From: a virus | DNA: 64,000 nt | Reading direction: 5' to 3' (one strand) | IMG/VR virus record: IMGVR_UViG_3300036715_003254 | Location: 1-64,000 of that record | Shown: piece by piece, positions 1-16,677 of the stretch | Layout of the letters: each line of letters opens with the position of its first letter | Numbering within the stretch: position 1 is the first letter of the stretch | Notes under the pieces: model-generated | What the model was told of the DNA's origin: nothing | The model's database searches: none | The model's input: the letters and a program-made list of their open reading frames with translations, nothing else | Made by a program: the position numbers and the translations under genes

Positions 1-186
1 AACAACAGACCTAAACAAGACAAATTTATATGTACGGCTTGTGGTCATCAGACTAATCCAGATTTCCAGGCGTCTGTACATATACTATATAGAGGTATGA
101 AGTCGTTTGGGCTAGGAACTAGCCTTGCGGACTTATATAAACGCAAAGCCTTTCGTGTTTCAGCTTCGCTGGAAGCTGTTAGTTAG
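1..186 (+). CDS. tnpB: TnpB (IS200/IS605 OrfB) C-terminal fragment, 5' end outside window
   Basis: The frame is open from base 1 to a TAG at 184-186. It carries the last part of a TnpB RNA-guided nuclease: KFICTACG is the second CxxC half of the zinc ribbon, and NPDFQAS sits where TnpB has its third RuvC motif (usually D-x-N-A-A/S), so the catalytic Asp is kept while the usual Asn is Gln. TnpB cuts DNA using an omega RNA whose 3' end overlaps the transposon right end; that end follows at 187-218. Whether the rest of the gene is intact cannot be seen. A decayed copy of the same end faces it at 820-936. Confidence 0.8.
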   Translation, partial: NNRPKQDKFICTACGHQTNPDFQASVHILYRGMKSFGLGTSLADLYKRKAFRVSASLEAVS

Positions 187-218
187 GAAGCTCCTTCATT
201 TATGAAGGAGCGGTTCAC
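187..218 (+). mobile_element. IS605-type right end / omega-RNA 3' hairpin
   Basis: Directly after the tnpB stop, a perfect 10-bp hairpin (190-199 with 202-211) is followed by GGTTCAC at 212-218, a typical right-end layout of IS200/IS605 elements. In such systems the guide is the DNA immediately beyond the end, here from about 219. That this RNA is made is inferred. Confidence 0.65.
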
Positions 219-819
219 CAAGTTCTATTAAGCAAGAACAAGACTAAGAAACTGATTGTTTATGAATAAAGCAATCAAAAATTAAGCTATACAGTAGCTT
301 CCTGTAAGAATTGGTATATTCTTAACTAATCGATATAATAGATTATCAATTAACAAAGAATATATAGTAATAATTCGATAGATTTAAAATTTTTGCTTTC
401 TGTCTTTTAAAATCCCTCTAAAGGAAACATATACAACAATTTTTAAAAATATAAGTAACCGAGAACTTATAAAAATAAATCCTAAAAATATGATTGAAAT
501 TACAACCATAAATTTAGAGACAATTTGACAACAGTAGTTATAATTTGAAGGGATTTGCTTTGTTAGAGAAAATCCGCCTCTAAAATCACATTTTTAGAAT
601 TTATTGTTTTCTGATTTTAGAAACGGAAGAGAAAGAAGTTTTCAGTTCCAGATTCTATGTTTTAGTTTAGAGTCATCTAAAATATAGAATCAGAAACTAT
701 ATTTTAGAGGACTTAATATATGCTCTCGAAATTACAATTTTGCTGGTTTGATTGACAACCAAAATTTATATTCGAGAGCTTAAATATGCAATTCTGCATT
801 TTAAACTCCTCAATTTTTT
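219..819. other. Gene-free AT-rich stretch between two facing TnpB ends
   Basis: No convincing gene is seen. It holds two strong inverted repeats: a perfect 12-bp stem at 676-687/697-708, and a compound hairpin at 722-779 with outer arms 722-730/771-779 and inner arms 736-742/760-766. These could be transposon-end hairpins, terminators or folded RNA. Confidence 0.5.
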
Positions 820-936
820 GTGAACCGTTCCCTTCTGTAAACAGAGTGAACTTCCTAACTAACAACTTACAACAAAGTTGAGCACGAAAGGCTTTGTGTT
901 TATAGTCCACAAGGCTGGTTCCCAACCCAAACGACC
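820..936 (-). mobile_element. Decayed second copy of the TnpB right end, inverted
   Basis: On the minus strand this repeats the layout of 101-218: a coding remnant matching the TnpB tail (GLGTSLVDYKHKAF against GLGTSLADLYKRKAF), the shared string GTTAGTTAGGAAG, a weaker hairpin (834-838 with 841-845, 827-830 with 848-851) and GGTTCAC at 820-826. No TnpB body lies upstream, because another gene ends at 947. It is either a remnant or a stand-alone guide-RNA-like unit. Confidence 0.65.
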
Positions 937-946
937 TTATAAAATC

Positions 947-1174
947 CTATTTATTCGAAGCAAAAGCTAGAAGTTTGCTAACATTTTCTATTCTAGGTGA
1001 GAAAAACTCCTCTATATCCTTTTTTACGCTTTCAGAATACATATTGTTTTTCATAGCGTCTTTAGAGAACTTCACGCCATTTCTTTCTGTGGTAACTATT
1101 TCTTGAAGTTTATAATCTCTAGACAACCAATTACCACTTTGCTGTTTTGCGTGTGGGCGGAGCGCTTCTAGCAT
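947..1174 (-). CDS. Hypothetical protein, 75 aa
   Basis: I do not recognise this protein. It is hydrophilic, with no membrane segment. The ATG has a good AAGGAG ribosome site, and an early-type promoter lies at 1199-1221, so it is probably expressed. The first twenty codons are more GC-rich than the rest. It ends about 10 bp from the decayed TnpB end, which may have replaced its original downstream neighbour. Confidence 0.6.
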   Translation of the reverse strand: MLEALRPHAKQQSGNWLSRDYKLQEIVTTERNGVKFSKDAMKNNMYSESVKKDIEEFFSPRIENVSKLLAFASNK

Positions 1175-2156: not shown

Positions 2157-2248
2157 TGTAATCCTTTCTTGTTTAATTTCAAGATAAAGAGTAAAAACTC
2201 TAACAAATCAGAATCAAAAACATTATATTTCTGACTTGCTAGAATTTT

Positions 2249-2271
2249 ATTCTAATAAAAAAAGGTTTAAA
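2249..2271 (-). promoter_or_regulatory. Early-type promoter (TTTAAA-11-TAGAAT)
   Basis: -10 TAGAAT at 2249-2254; TTTAAA at 2266-2271. It drives the GC-rich 1881-2156 gene. Confidence 0.55.
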
Positions 2272-2339
2272 AATTGAACGATTGAATCAAAGAAGAAACT
2301 ATTCAAAACCCAATTTCGATGTATTCTTCTTTTGTAATT

Positions 2340-2902
2340 CATTACAATTTTAATTATTTGACACGGGTCACCACGAGTCCTCAACACAAAGACTCAAAGA
2401 AGAATGATGAAATCAAAAGAGAAGTTTGGATCTATCCAATTGGCAGACAATATTTGCGTTGTATTCTCTCTTTATGATTCATTCTTTTTTGAATCTTTTA
2501 TAAAAGATTGATAAAATCGAAAAAGAACATTTTGAGACAGCTCTAATCAATCGGAAGCTCCGAATTAATTATTCACTAATTGGGTAGGGTATAAACCTAC
2601 GATCTCATCGTTTTGCTGACGATGTAGTCTTTTTCTATGATTCAATTGTATCATTTCTTGATTCAATGGCGCCAAGAAACCATTGAATCATTCGCACTGT
2701 TTCCCAGACAGCACTTAAAGGCTTCTTTTTAGAGCAATCAGCCAATCAAACTAACTCAACACTATATTAACGGAAGTGCTAACCGTCCGTTATTATTTAG
2801 AGCAACGAAAACTCATAGATTGTTCGCCTTTACCACAATCAGGTGTCAGCTGGGAAGGCTGAAAAGAGAACTCATTGAATAAAATTCTCTTTTCAACTTT
2901 CA
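2340..2902 (-). ncRNA. Candidate large structured RNA, about 560 nt
   Basis: There is no gene here but many hairpins: 2861-2870/2885-2894 (10 bp, just after the predicted start of transcription), 2660-2669/2680-2689 (10 bp), 2606-2611/2619-2624, 2584-2588/2596-2600, 2769-2773/2787-2791, 2551-2555/2559-2563, 2375-2379/2391-2395. TGACAC at 2359-2364 can pair with GTGTCA at 2843-2848, closing almost the whole stretch. TTGCTCTAAA occurs twice. The promoter at 2909-2942 gives the minus strand. I could not fit tRNA cloverleafs. Phages carry large folded RNAs such as GOLLD and ROOL; whether this belongs to either is not shown. Confidence 0.45.
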
Positions 2903-2908
2903 TAAATT

Positions 2909-2942
2909 ATTATAACTGAAATTAGTTTAAAAATTCTTTAAA
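2909..2942 (-). promoter_or_regulatory. Early-type promoter with two upstream elements
   Basis: -10 TATAAT at 2909-2914; TTTAAA at 2926-2931 and again at 2937-2942, 11 bp further. The first downstream feature is the folded RNA stretch. Confidence 0.65.
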
Positions 2943-2959
2943 TCCAGAGATAAAATCAA

Positions 2960-3240
2960 GTTTGATGTCAGAGTTTTTAGACTCTCGAGTTTTTAGTGCG
3001 CCTCACAACACAAAAGTTTAAACACAACAGTGTAGGTATTTTGACCTTACGAGTCTCGTCGCAGCAAAGGTTTTCCATTGACCTCAGGAAATCCAATCGG
3101 GCTTGTCTACGCCGGCAAGCAAGCGGATTATGTATGGGAAGATCGAAGTCTTACAGGCATACACAATCATTACCAATTTTCAATATTTGTTCGTTGTAAT
3201 CAAACTTTATAATGCTCTGGATTTAAAAGAACCTTTTATA
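2960..3240 (-). ncRNA. Second candidate structured RNA
   Basis: Gene-free and hairpin-rich: 3131-3136/3158-3163 (TGTATG/CATACA), 3101-3105/3116-3120 (GCTTG/CAAGC), 3049-3053/3055-3059 (ACGAG/CTCGT). It lies between the promoters at 3247-3269 and 2909-2942, so it could be a separate transcript or the first part of one longer RNA running to about 2340. It is more GC-rich than most intergenic DNA here. Confidence 0.4.
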
Positions 3241-3246
3241 GTTAAA

Positions 3247-3269
3247 ATTATAGCTAAGAAAAGTTTAAA
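3247..3269 (-). promoter_or_regulatory. Early-type promoter (TTTAAA-11-TATAAT)
   Basis: -10 TATAAT at 3247-3252; TTTAAA at 3264-3269. No protein gene lies downstream for 1.1 kb; the folded RNA region starts at once. Confidence 0.65.
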
Positions 3270-3383
3270 ATAAAGGAGAATTTTCCCTTATTTCAAAGAA
3301 CGCTTTATAACAAAATCGCCTTTCTCTTTCCAGTAAGATATAATCCAGATTTTGCTAGATGGTATTAAGGTGAACAGAAGAAA

Positions 3384-8899: not shown

Positions 8900-8922
8900 A
8901 TTATAACTAAATAAAGCTTAAA
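8900..8922 (-). promoter_or_regulatory. Early-type promoter (TTTAAG-11-TATAAT)
   Basis: -10 TATAAT at 8900-8905 with extended TTTAGT before it; TTTAAG at 8917-8922. Confidence 0.7.
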
Positions 8923-14225: not shown

Positions 14226-14636
14226 TTAATTGCCATCGCCTCTTCTTATTAAATCTCTTTCTTTTATTGTTTCTCTCTTTTCGTATTGTTTTTTACCTCT
14301 ACAAAATCCAACTTTTAGCCTAATAACTGTTTTTTCGTCTTGATATAACTCGAGAGGTATAATAGTAGTTCCCTTTTCAGAAAGAAATTTCATCATTTTC
14401 TCTCTTTCTTTCTTAGTACAGAGAACTGTCTTTAACCTTGTAGGATCGTCAACCTTTCCTATATGAAATTTCGTATAGACACCTTTAGAGTCAATCATAC
14501 AATATTCACCTTTTAAGTTCGCTCGGTGTTCTCTGATGGCCTTTACCTCTTGTCCAAAAAGTATCAAGGAACACTCAAGCTCCTTTTCGATTGTATAATC
14601 GAATTTCGCTTTTGTGTTCTTAGCGAATGATATCAT
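14226..14636 (-). CDS. smpB: SsrA-binding protein SmpB
   Basis: SmpB binds tmRNA and brings it to stalled ribosomes. The 136 residues match throughout: KNTKAKFDYTIEKELE, GQEVKAIREHRANLKGEYC, HIGKVDDP, TIIPLELY, KVGFCRGKKQYEKRE, and the basic tail ERDLIRRG. The tail, which enters the decoding site in known SmpB, is present. Phage copies are uncommon. The ATG overlaps the end of the YqeY-like gene by 4 bp. No tmRNA gene could be fitted in the window; the large gene-free stretch at 15600-16340 is the nearest candidate RNA. Confidence 0.9.
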   Translation of the reverse strand: MISFAKNTKAKFDYTIEKELECSLILFGQEVKAIREHRANLKGEYCMIDSKGVYTKFHIGKVDDPTRLKTVLCTKKEREKMMKFLSEKGTTIIPLELYQDEKTVIRLKVGFCRGKKQYEKRETIKERDLIRRGDGN

Positions 14637-15034
14637 ATACCTAACACCTGTTTAGATAGTTCTGATAGACTTTTAGGATTATACAGACCATCAAAATTTT
14701 GTTTAAAATGAGCGTTTATTTCTCCTAGCGATTTTGGAACAGCAGGAAGAGATTTTTCAGAAACTAGCTTTTTAATTCCATTTACTACTTCATCGTCATT
14801 CATTTGTTTTGGAAGATAAGATTCATAAAGCGCCCTTTCCGAGTCTTTCAAATATTCGTTCTTCAACAAGTTTCTAATTACTTGAACACATTCACCGTCA
14901 GTACTCTCCCTGTTACCTTTATTCTTTCCTGGAGCCATCACTTCTCCAAGAAGGAACGATAGATCTTCTTTTGTTGGTAAGTTGTTTTTTCTAGCTATAT
15001 ACAAGTCTCCATATATTTTTGCTTGAATACCCAT
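14633..15034 (-). CDS. GatB/YqeY domain protein
   Basis: The 133 residues follow the YqeY pattern: FLLGEVMAPG near the start, GECVQVIRNLLKN, ERALYESYLPKQMNDDEVV and the closing SLGEINAHF and LSELSKQVLG. The domain also forms the tail of the tRNA-dependent amidotransferase GatB, where it contacts tRNA; stand-alone YqeY has no settled role. It is coupled by a 4-bp overlap to smpB, suggesting a shared link to translation. Confidence 0.75.
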   Translation of the reverse strand: MGIQAKIYGDLYIARKNNLPTKEDLSFLLGEVMAPGKNKGNRESTDGECVQVIRNLLKNEYLKDSERALYESYLPKQMNDDEVVNGIKKLVSEKSLPAVPKSLGEINAHFKQNFDGLYNPKSLSELSKQVLGI

Positions 15035-15539: not shown

Positions 15540-15573
15540 ATTATAACTAAAAATTTCTTAAACTAATCTTAAA
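15540..15573 (-). promoter_or_regulatory. Early-type promoter with two upstream elements
   Basis: -10 TATAAT at 15540-15545; TTTAAG at 15557-15562 and 15568-15573. It heads the smpB operon. Confidence 0.7.
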
Positions 15574-16066
15574 TTTCAGCAAAATTAAAAATTAAGGTTA
15601 ATTTAAGAAATGGTGGACGATACGGCATCGAAGCCGTGTTATCCTGATATCTTCGTTAAGAAATAGTTAAAACAAAATCGCACTTGAAACGATTTTGAGT
15701 TCAAATAGGAGTTTTACAATGTTTTTAGAGAAAAGTGAAAAGAAAGGAAAAGAAAAAATTCAACTTCGTAGCAAAAGGAGTTGTTTCTTGTTAAGCTGCC
15801 AACTCCGCTGCAGGTTTAAAGTTTGTATTGTTTGCACTTATTTGTTTTCAAGTGTATTTCTTACCTACACAATAACAGGATCTTACCCTTAACCGCCCGT
15901 GTTTAAATGGAAGCTGGTTTCATTGTTTAAGCAATGTTCCCAGCTGAGACAACAACTATACGCACACCCTTAAAACTATGCGATCCTTTGCTGCCGAAGG
16001 ATTTCTCGAGACATTGAAGTAGAGGTGCACTTACTTCTGAATACTCAATGAGAAATTATTCGAATG

Positions 16067-16108
16067 ACTTTCTTCGATGGCTATTCTCGAATAGCCATCG
16101 AAGAAAGT
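16067..16108. repeat. 20-bp perfect inverted repeat
   Basis: Arms 16067-16086 and 16089-16108 with only two bases between. It is the most stable hairpin in the folded stretch. Confidence 0.85.
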
Positions 16109-16130
16109 TATTAAGTGCTTCATTAAACAA

Positions 16131-16305
16131 TCAACGGGTAGTTACTCCCGTGTATCCATCTAGCCTCTTCCTATCATTGAAAGAGGTTACTGATAACTAA
16201 ATGGACTTTTTATTAAGCACACAGTCAGCGGCGCTATTTGACGCCGCATATCCGTCTAGCCTCTTTCGACAAAAGAGGTTACTGGCAACTAGATGGACTT
16301 ATTTC
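16131..16305. repeat. Two tandem hairpin modules with conserved core
   Basis: Modules 16131-16208 and 16227-16305 share the order: GC-rich hairpin (CGGG/CCCG, or GCGGCG/CGCCGC), TATCC, TCTAG, the CCTCTT/AAGAGG stem, TTACTG and AACTA, ATGGACTT. The first hairpins differ in sequence but keep pairing, and the outer stem (CCATCTAG or CCGTCTAG with CTAAATGG or CTAGATGG) changes while mostly pairing. GTGCTT at 16114-16119 can pair with AAGCAC around the first module. Confidence 0.7.
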
Positions 16306-16347
16306 TAAAGCCTAGCACAAAGGTGTATTATTCGGCTTTAGATCGTT

Positions 16348-16551
16348 TTATTTTGTAGCGTTTGCTTCAGCTTTTTTAGCTTCAGCTGCTTTTTTTGCTT
16401 CAGCTTTTTTAGCTTTTCTTTCTTCAGCTTTTTTAGCTTTTTTTGATTCGACTTTTTCAGTTTTGTTTTCATCAGCTTTTTTAGCTTCAGCTGCAAAACC
16501 TACAGAAGCAAGACCAGCTATAACAAGAAGGCTTACAAGAACTTTTTTCAT
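16348..16551 (-). CDS. Secreted Lys/Ala/Glu-rich small protein
   Basis: This 67-residue protein has a clear signal peptide (MKKVLVSLLVIAGLASVGFA, cut before AEAKK), then a strongly basic, helix-favouring repeat of KKAEAKK type. It would be exported to the periplasm. An AAGGAG ribosome site and the promoter at 16603-16625 support expression. It resembles low-complexity periplasmic proteins of the host rather than a known phage family. Function unknown. Confidence 0.65.
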   Translation of the reverse strand: MKKVLVSLLVIAGLASVGFAAEAKKADENKTEKVESKKAKKAEERKAKKAEAKKAAEAKKAEANATK

Positions 16552-16602
16552 TTTTATCTCCTTTTATATAGAAAGCGATTATTTATCACTTTCTAAAGTC
16601 AA

Positions 16603-16625
16603 ATTATATTCTAAAAAAGTTTAAA
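16603..16625 (-). promoter_or_regulatory. Early-type promoter (TTTAAA-11-TATAAT)
   Basis: -10 TATAAT at 16603-16608; TTTAAA at 16620-16625. It leads the secreted basic protein and possibly the folded RNA beyond. Confidence 0.65.
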
Positions 16626-16677
16626 ATAAAAAGTTTTTTAGAAATTATTTTGAAGTCAACTTCTATTTCGGATGATA

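Follow-up and report, generated by a model that had tools for sequence, protein, structure and literature searches.

What is encoded by a hairpin-rich stretch of about 740 nt in which no protein gene is recognized? The question is raised by a window of 64 kb, i.e. the whole stretch of DNA analysed here, which is part of a viral record of 138,481 bp. A preliminary description had proposed a single large RNA candidate, with tandem modules under selection for structure. Indeed, no convincing protein gene is present between 15518 and 16347, and the stretch (746 nt) is hairpin-rich as described, folding more stably than expected by chance on both strands (z -8.9 on the plus strand and -6.8 on the minus strand). 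A plus-strand gene for it was rejected: the flanking genes, the tmRNA presented below and the promoter motifs are all on the minus strand, which is why the minus strand is read throughout (Table 1). The capsid, portal and DnaB-type helicase proteins are T4-like and have their nearest relatives in Campylobacter phages of the Eucampyvirinae (44-51% identity for the capsid protein, 37% for DnaB). No tRNA gene was detected in the genome by ARAGORN. At the beginning of the window (1-950), hairpins were noticed by eye after what looks like the terminal part of a zinc-finger transposase-type ORF, perhaps a TnpB with its guide RNA.

Table 1. Coordinates in the window of the features discussed in the text
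Feature	Position	Strand	Basis
smpB of the phage, 136 aa	14226..14636	-	PF01668, 109.7 bits (cut-off 27), E 1.5e-31; PDB SmpB matches; alignment
YqeY-like protein gene	14633..15034	-	PF09424, E 1.6e-5, slightly under curated cut-off; solved YqeY, E 5e-4
Promoter-like motif, downstream of the tmRNA and before the SmpB gene cluster	15540..15576	-	motif at 15551
tmRNA gene, 288 nt	15611..15898	-	RF00023 match below cut-off; anatomy scan; acceptor table
Tag reading frame from GCA resume codon, ANNTNFKPAAELAA then stop	15791..15835	-	sequence; start as in Campylobacterota ssrA
Strongly folded RNA, 449 nt, directly 5' of the tmRNA	15899..16347	-	shuffles; no Rfam match; helix table
Long hairpin, 19 perfect pairs in 24-nt arms	16063..16112	-	helix table
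Module 2, plan as module 1	16120..16218	-	module alignment; helix table
Module 1, proposed three-way junction then P4	16213..16310	-	module alignment; helix table
67-aa ORF, signal-peptide-like start, Lys/Ala-rich repeats	16348..16551	-	ends where the large RNA starts
Promoter-like motif of the TTTAG-TATAAT type, preceding the 67-aa ORF, large RNA and tmRNA	16603..16640	-	genome-wide motif repeat; variant at 16615

Judging from its sequence, the 3' part of the stretch, i.e. its low-coordinate end, which the preliminary description had overlooked, can be assigned to a complete gene for a tmRNA, an RNA by which stalled ribosomes are rescued, representing about 290 of the 740 nt. Indeed, (i) an acceptor stem GGGCGGU/AUCGUCC with seven of seven pairs is followed by ACCA, the encoded CCA ending at 15611, (ii) the T-arm ACGGC-UUCGAU-GCCGU has a 5-bp stem and a loop of 6 nt where 7 nt are usual, (iii) P2 is formed by AUCCUG (15881-15876) and CAGGAU (15646-15641), and (iv) a PK1-like element (GUGUA/UACAC with UAAG/CUUG) is visible by eye ahead of UAAGUGCAAAC and the tag frame. 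The tRNA-like domain is intact in the predicted fold of the whole region, the D-region is unusual, and PK2-PK4 of the four pseudoknots are not recognizable, as expected since this tmRNA is shortened. A permissive Rfam scan placed the tmRNA family RF00023 at 15611-15888 on the minus strand with 13.5 bits, against a gathering cut-off of 47, and with E-values of 0.0083 (first scan), 0.0014 (shorter stretch) and 1.4e-4 (search of the phage's own genome); the 5' limit was moved to 15898 by reading the sequence. In a control, RF00023 was above the cut-off in nine of 14 well-known genomes, the other five including archaea. Among the families for which the preliminary description had suggested an Rfam scan, tmRNA is thus the one matched, below its cut-off, and ROOL, GOLLD and group I introns are not. 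The gene is not called by ARAGORN, for which the 6-nt T-loop and the atypical D-region offer a plausible reason, and a profile built from 46 tmRNAs gave a weak best match, located at the tag (E 0.014). The combined anatomy, made up of a resume codon, a tag frame ending in small hydrophobic residues, a T-loop, CCA and a paired acceptor, is found at one site of the 138-kb genome and is absent from all 60 first-order Markov genomes, a result which indicates rarity and not blind discovery, as the scan was designed after the tmRNA had been seen.

The tag frame is intact and ends in the small hydrophobic residues LAA. In the genome collection, 48 stretches match the resume codon and tag-start motif; the match in Leuconostoc is due to chance, and the other 47 bear ssrA-type tags (for example ANNTNYRPALAVA, ANNTNYRPAYAVA and ANNTNYAPQRVAA), 45 of them from Campylobacterota by title and two from records titled only 'bacterium'. 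A second viral contig (L083) encodes a regular tmRNA (67.6 bits, tag ANNTSYKSTTASAAFAA) whose acceptor is nearly identical to that of the window, and it is the only clear case in a tmRNA search of 41 viral records (40 capsid-related records and L083). Candidates from the same kind of search were discarded, the one in G012 being a tRNA-Asp and those in G004 and G039 appearing to be due to chance. Several other observations concern tmRNA and tRNA loci. At the start of the viral contig L237 (55-490), a phage tmRNA with the tag ANNTNYSVVVAA is directly followed by a tRNA-Cys. In a Sulfurimonas MAG (L196), the ssrA tag region is present twice (93-119 and 596-622), 503 bp apart and only once inside a complete tmRNA, perhaps through an attachment duplication of an island. 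In the viral record L085 (71-1059), a tRNA gene, tRNA-Leu-like by eye, is seemingly split by about 0.9 kb with an HNH-type ORF, probably an intron.

Furthermore, SmpB, the protein partner of tmRNA, is encoded about 1 kb downstream of the tmRNA. Its domain PF01668 exceeds the cut-off, and the NCBIfam equivalog models for SmpB give 108 bits, below their own cut-offs of 119-130. Compared with two Arcobacter-type SmpBs, the phage protein has a central loop about 9 residues short, and its tail, reduced by about 5 residues, does not include the terminal (A/I)LK stretch; the EKR motif and positively charged residues of the tail are retained. The central loop of SmpB touches the tRNA-like domain and is known to have been lost in reduced genomes (PMC4131195), while the tail is required for accommodation and its truncation has been reported to abolish tmRNA activity in Escherichia coli (PMC4151336). 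The phage tmRNA, with its altered T-loop and D-region, and the loop-less SmpB may thus constitute a co-adapted pair. Among 50 related records, SmpB was found above the cut-off only in a near-identical contig. The YqeY-like gene directly precedes smpB and overlaps its start by 4 nt; similar proteins are present in PA5oct-type jumbo phages.

These features bear on two other readings of the locus. That the whole 740 nt would form one giant ROOL/GOLLD-type RNA, resembling a tmRNA by chance, agrees with the strong folding of the entire region and with an Rfam tmRNA score under the cut-off, but it is highly improbable in view of an anatomy that occurs nowhere else in the genome and in none of the 60 random genomes, of a tag that fits the host phylum, of the nearby smpB, and of ROOL and GOLLD covariance models that find no match between 15000 and 17000 up to E = 5. 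The second reading accepts the pair but assigns it the role of a decoy, jamming or titrating the trans-translation of the host instead of performing it. An SmpB deprived of its central loop and of part of its tail, on which charging and accommodation depend (PMC4131195, PMC4151336), could be so understood, all the more as an almost TLD-only phage tmRNA has been likened to known inhibitors (PMC4131195); the resume codon, the intact tag frame and the LAA end would, however, be superfluous in a decoy, and the SmpB tail keeps its positive residues and its EKR motif, so that this role is considered quite unlikely. The degenerate state of both partners (6-nt T-loop, D-region, central loop, short tail) nevertheless counts against the preferred reading of a functional phage trans-translation pair.

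The 449 nt that precede the tmRNA are extremely folded on the minus strand, with a z-score of about -10 (40 shuffles); sets of 10-12 shuffles gave the rough values -9.6 and -18.5. This RNA is 49-54 kcal/mol more stable than its shuffles, the largest difference among the minus-strand 449-nt stretches tested genome-wide, the next being 35. It is predicted to contain a 5' hairpin, two tandem modules, a 19-bp hairpin and, from there to the tmRNA, several hairpins of high probability. The long perfect hairpin and the two modules of the preliminary description are both real: the hairpin pairs 16108-16090 with 16085-16067, its 24-nt arms matching at 96%, and both modules fit a drawing in which a three-way junction, paired throughout and bearing a YCAG loop, precedes P4. 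In module 1, these helices are P1 (16297-16289/16259-16251), P3 (16278-16271/16267-16260), P4 (16247-16241/16234-16228) and a short YCAG hairpin, and in module 2, P1 (16205-16197/16163-16155), P3 (16186-16179/16171-16164) and P4 (16151-16147/16138-16134). In another part of the window (2190-3280), about 1.1 kb without convincing genes are rich in long helices (minus-strand MFE -290 kcal/mol; z of about -3.5 to -6.7 for 449-nt windows) and possibly represent another large structured RNA, with no Rfam match above cut-off and no similarity to the RNA at 15.6-16.3 kb.

The covariation that had been described between the modules is thin: it holds for P4, where CGGG/CCCG against GCGGCG/CGCCGC corresponds to two two-sided changes (G-C to A-U and C-G to G-C), and fails elsewhere, as the change from CCATCTAG to CCGTCTAG, presented as compensatory, is one-sided and leaves an A.C mismatch in one module, and the outer stem shows no compensatory pair. 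The strings TTACTG and AACTA, said to be kept single-stranded, can pair on the minus strand as a UUR-YCAG-UAA hairpin completing the three-way junction. Selection on RNA structure is therefore suggested by the folding energy and not by covariation, the only homologues found being identical copies. Moreover, the 5' P1 strand of module 1 is also perfectly complementary to its 3' counterpart in module 2, and two near-isoenergetic folds are predicted (-63.0 and -62.8 kcal/mol), whose competition lowers the P1 pair probabilities to 0.13-0.15, so that the drawing of the modules is a proposal.

This competition could be that of a regulatory device, the 449-nt RNA being a cis-acting leader whose modules toggle between self-closed and module 1-module 2 folds and steer the synthesis or processing of the tmRNA in the manner of a tandem riboswitch. 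Its position directly 5' of the tmRNA, the two folds with their low P1 probabilities and the report of a phage tmRNA with a glutamine riboswitch (PMC9004378) are in line with such a role. We regard it as possible though somewhat unlikely, given that riboswitch families give no match, that most of the 449 nt lie in other stable hairpins, exceeding the needs of a switch, and that no terminator is evident from the modules to the tmRNA.

Relatives of the 449-nt RNA were sought in several ways. No Rfam family was matched, including ROOL, GOLLD, group I and II introns and riboswitches (the glutamine riboswitch among them); miRNA-like matches on the long hairpin were dismissed as due to chance. Two contigs share 1,061 nt with the window at 100% identity and provide no covariation. 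The module pattern was found in 15 stretches of viral contigs and is real only in these two, and a covariance model of the module detected nothing in 50 related viral records, the window itself being the sole positive control. A DNA similarity search of GenBank phages and plasmids returned nothing useful, blastn of the leader against the collected loci gave only weak matches (E 0.2-0.6), and no diverged homologue was found in the viral records examined. The stretch before the tmRNA of L083 is also strongly folded (z -5.3 over 449 nt; for the noncoding part of 381 nt, two runs gave -5.4 and -2.7), with a long closing helix predicted, and has no sequence similarity to the 449-nt RNA; a folded upstream region is thus seen in two phage tmRNAs. 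Upstream of 21 host ssrA genes, z ranges from +1.8 to -3.5, a rough control in which stretches were taken regardless of coding content.

As regards transcription, a sigma-70 scan was uninformative and a phage-specific motif emerged instead. A promoter-like motif ending in TTTAGTTATAATTT precedes many minus-strand genes, and TTTAAG-N-TTTAAGAAAAGTTTAGTTATAATTT recurs before genes, nearly always on the minus strand, at 8911, 10232, 11951, 13025, 15551, 16615 and 25692 as well as elsewhere in the record; it is probably the early promoter of the phage itself. A variant lies upstream of the 67-aa ORF and both RNAs (16615) and a copy before the SmpB cluster (15551), and no such motif was seen to separate the large RNA from the tmRNA, a placement which suggests that the two RNAs are probably one transcript. 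The 67-aa ORF upstream of them weakly resembles acid-shock type proteins.

The explanation that we prefer is a phage trans-translation pair accompanied by an orphan large RNA, probably co-transcribed with the tmRNA and separated from it by RNase P. A single transcript would run from near 16600 through the 67-aa ORF, the 449-nt RNA and the tmRNA, and a single cut by the host RNase P at 15899/15898 would give the tmRNA its 5' end and the large RNA its 3' end. The tmRNA would be charged with alanine, be bound by the phage SmpB and enter ribosomes stalled on mRNAs broken during infection; ANNTNFKPAAELAA would be appended to the unfinished protein and the ribosome released for phage messages. The large RNA, placed beside a tmRNA as ROOL and GOLLD are beside tRNAs, would fold separately and most likely act in trans as a structural RNA, which is the weakest step of the scheme. 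The chances of this explanation are judged slightly better than even, an estimate which applies jointly to all of it, including a T4-like phage with a host among the Campylobacterota. For the tmRNA, it draws on the RF00023 match (E 1.4e-4), the unique anatomy, the Campylobacterota-type tag and the close acceptor of L083; for SmpB, on the domain and structure matches; for the large RNA, on the extreme predicted folding, on the tRNA-like domain being kept in the fold of the whole region and on the second phage tmRNA with a folded noncoding front; and for the shared transcript, on the placement of the promoter motif. A broader version is unlikely, in which the derived tmRNA, the loop-less SmpB and perhaps the YqeY-like protein would have co-evolved as a self-contained trans-translation machine, joined by a large RNA of a new class. 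This RNA would be processed with the tmRNA and help to rescue or take over ribosomes, and the same pairing would recur in other Campylobacterota phages such as L083.

A vaguely defined hairpin-rich RNA can thus be put to the test as a phage tmRNA, one so derived that it escapes the usual finder and stays under the Rfam cut-off. With an SmpB whose presumed contact loop for the tRNA-like domain has been lost, it would form a natural reduced trans-translation pair, by which the question of why phages rescue ribosomes, or block their rescue, could be tested. The tmRNA and SmpB are derived members of known families, and the RNA of 449 nt is a candidate for a new large RNA, its tie to a tmRNA giving the first clue to its biology.

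Compared with known systems, the locus shares some traits with each. ROOL and GOLLD, reported near phage tRNA islands (PMC12286853), also are strongly folded RNAs of hundreds of nucleotides located in phages next to a tRNA-like gene; the comparison made in the preliminary description fits in this setting, whereas the neighbour here is a tmRNA that occupies part of the proposed RNA, and the covariance models are unmatched. The one-piece tmRNA of Campylobacterota (ssrA, RF00023) has the same acceptor stem, T-arm, CCA, P2 and GCA resume codon, and tags with an ANNTN start and a small hydrophobic end, but measures 374-389 nt in the hosts against 288 nt in the phage, whose tag ends in ELAA instead of LAVA, YAVA or RVAA and whose T-loop, D-region and detectability differ as described above. 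Both tmRNA and SmpB have been reported in huge phages (PMC7162821), where both halves of trans-translation are likewise phage-encoded; the phage studied here, in contrast, is a 138-kb T4-like phage without detectable tRNAs, with a derived SmpB and with a large structured RNA before its tmRNA. tmRNAs occur in 2.3% of phage genomes (PMC9004378), and in phage Melnitz the tmRNA is coupled to a structured RNA element as well, there a two-piece tmRNA with a known riboswitch, here a one-piece tmRNA with an RNA several times the size of a riboswitch. Finally, the reduced-genome SmpBs of Carsonella and hemoplasmas (PMC4131195) have also lost the central loop, and the tail is shortened as in Carsonella, whereas the SmpB of the window is the product of a phage gene that adjoins an equally derived phage tmRNA.
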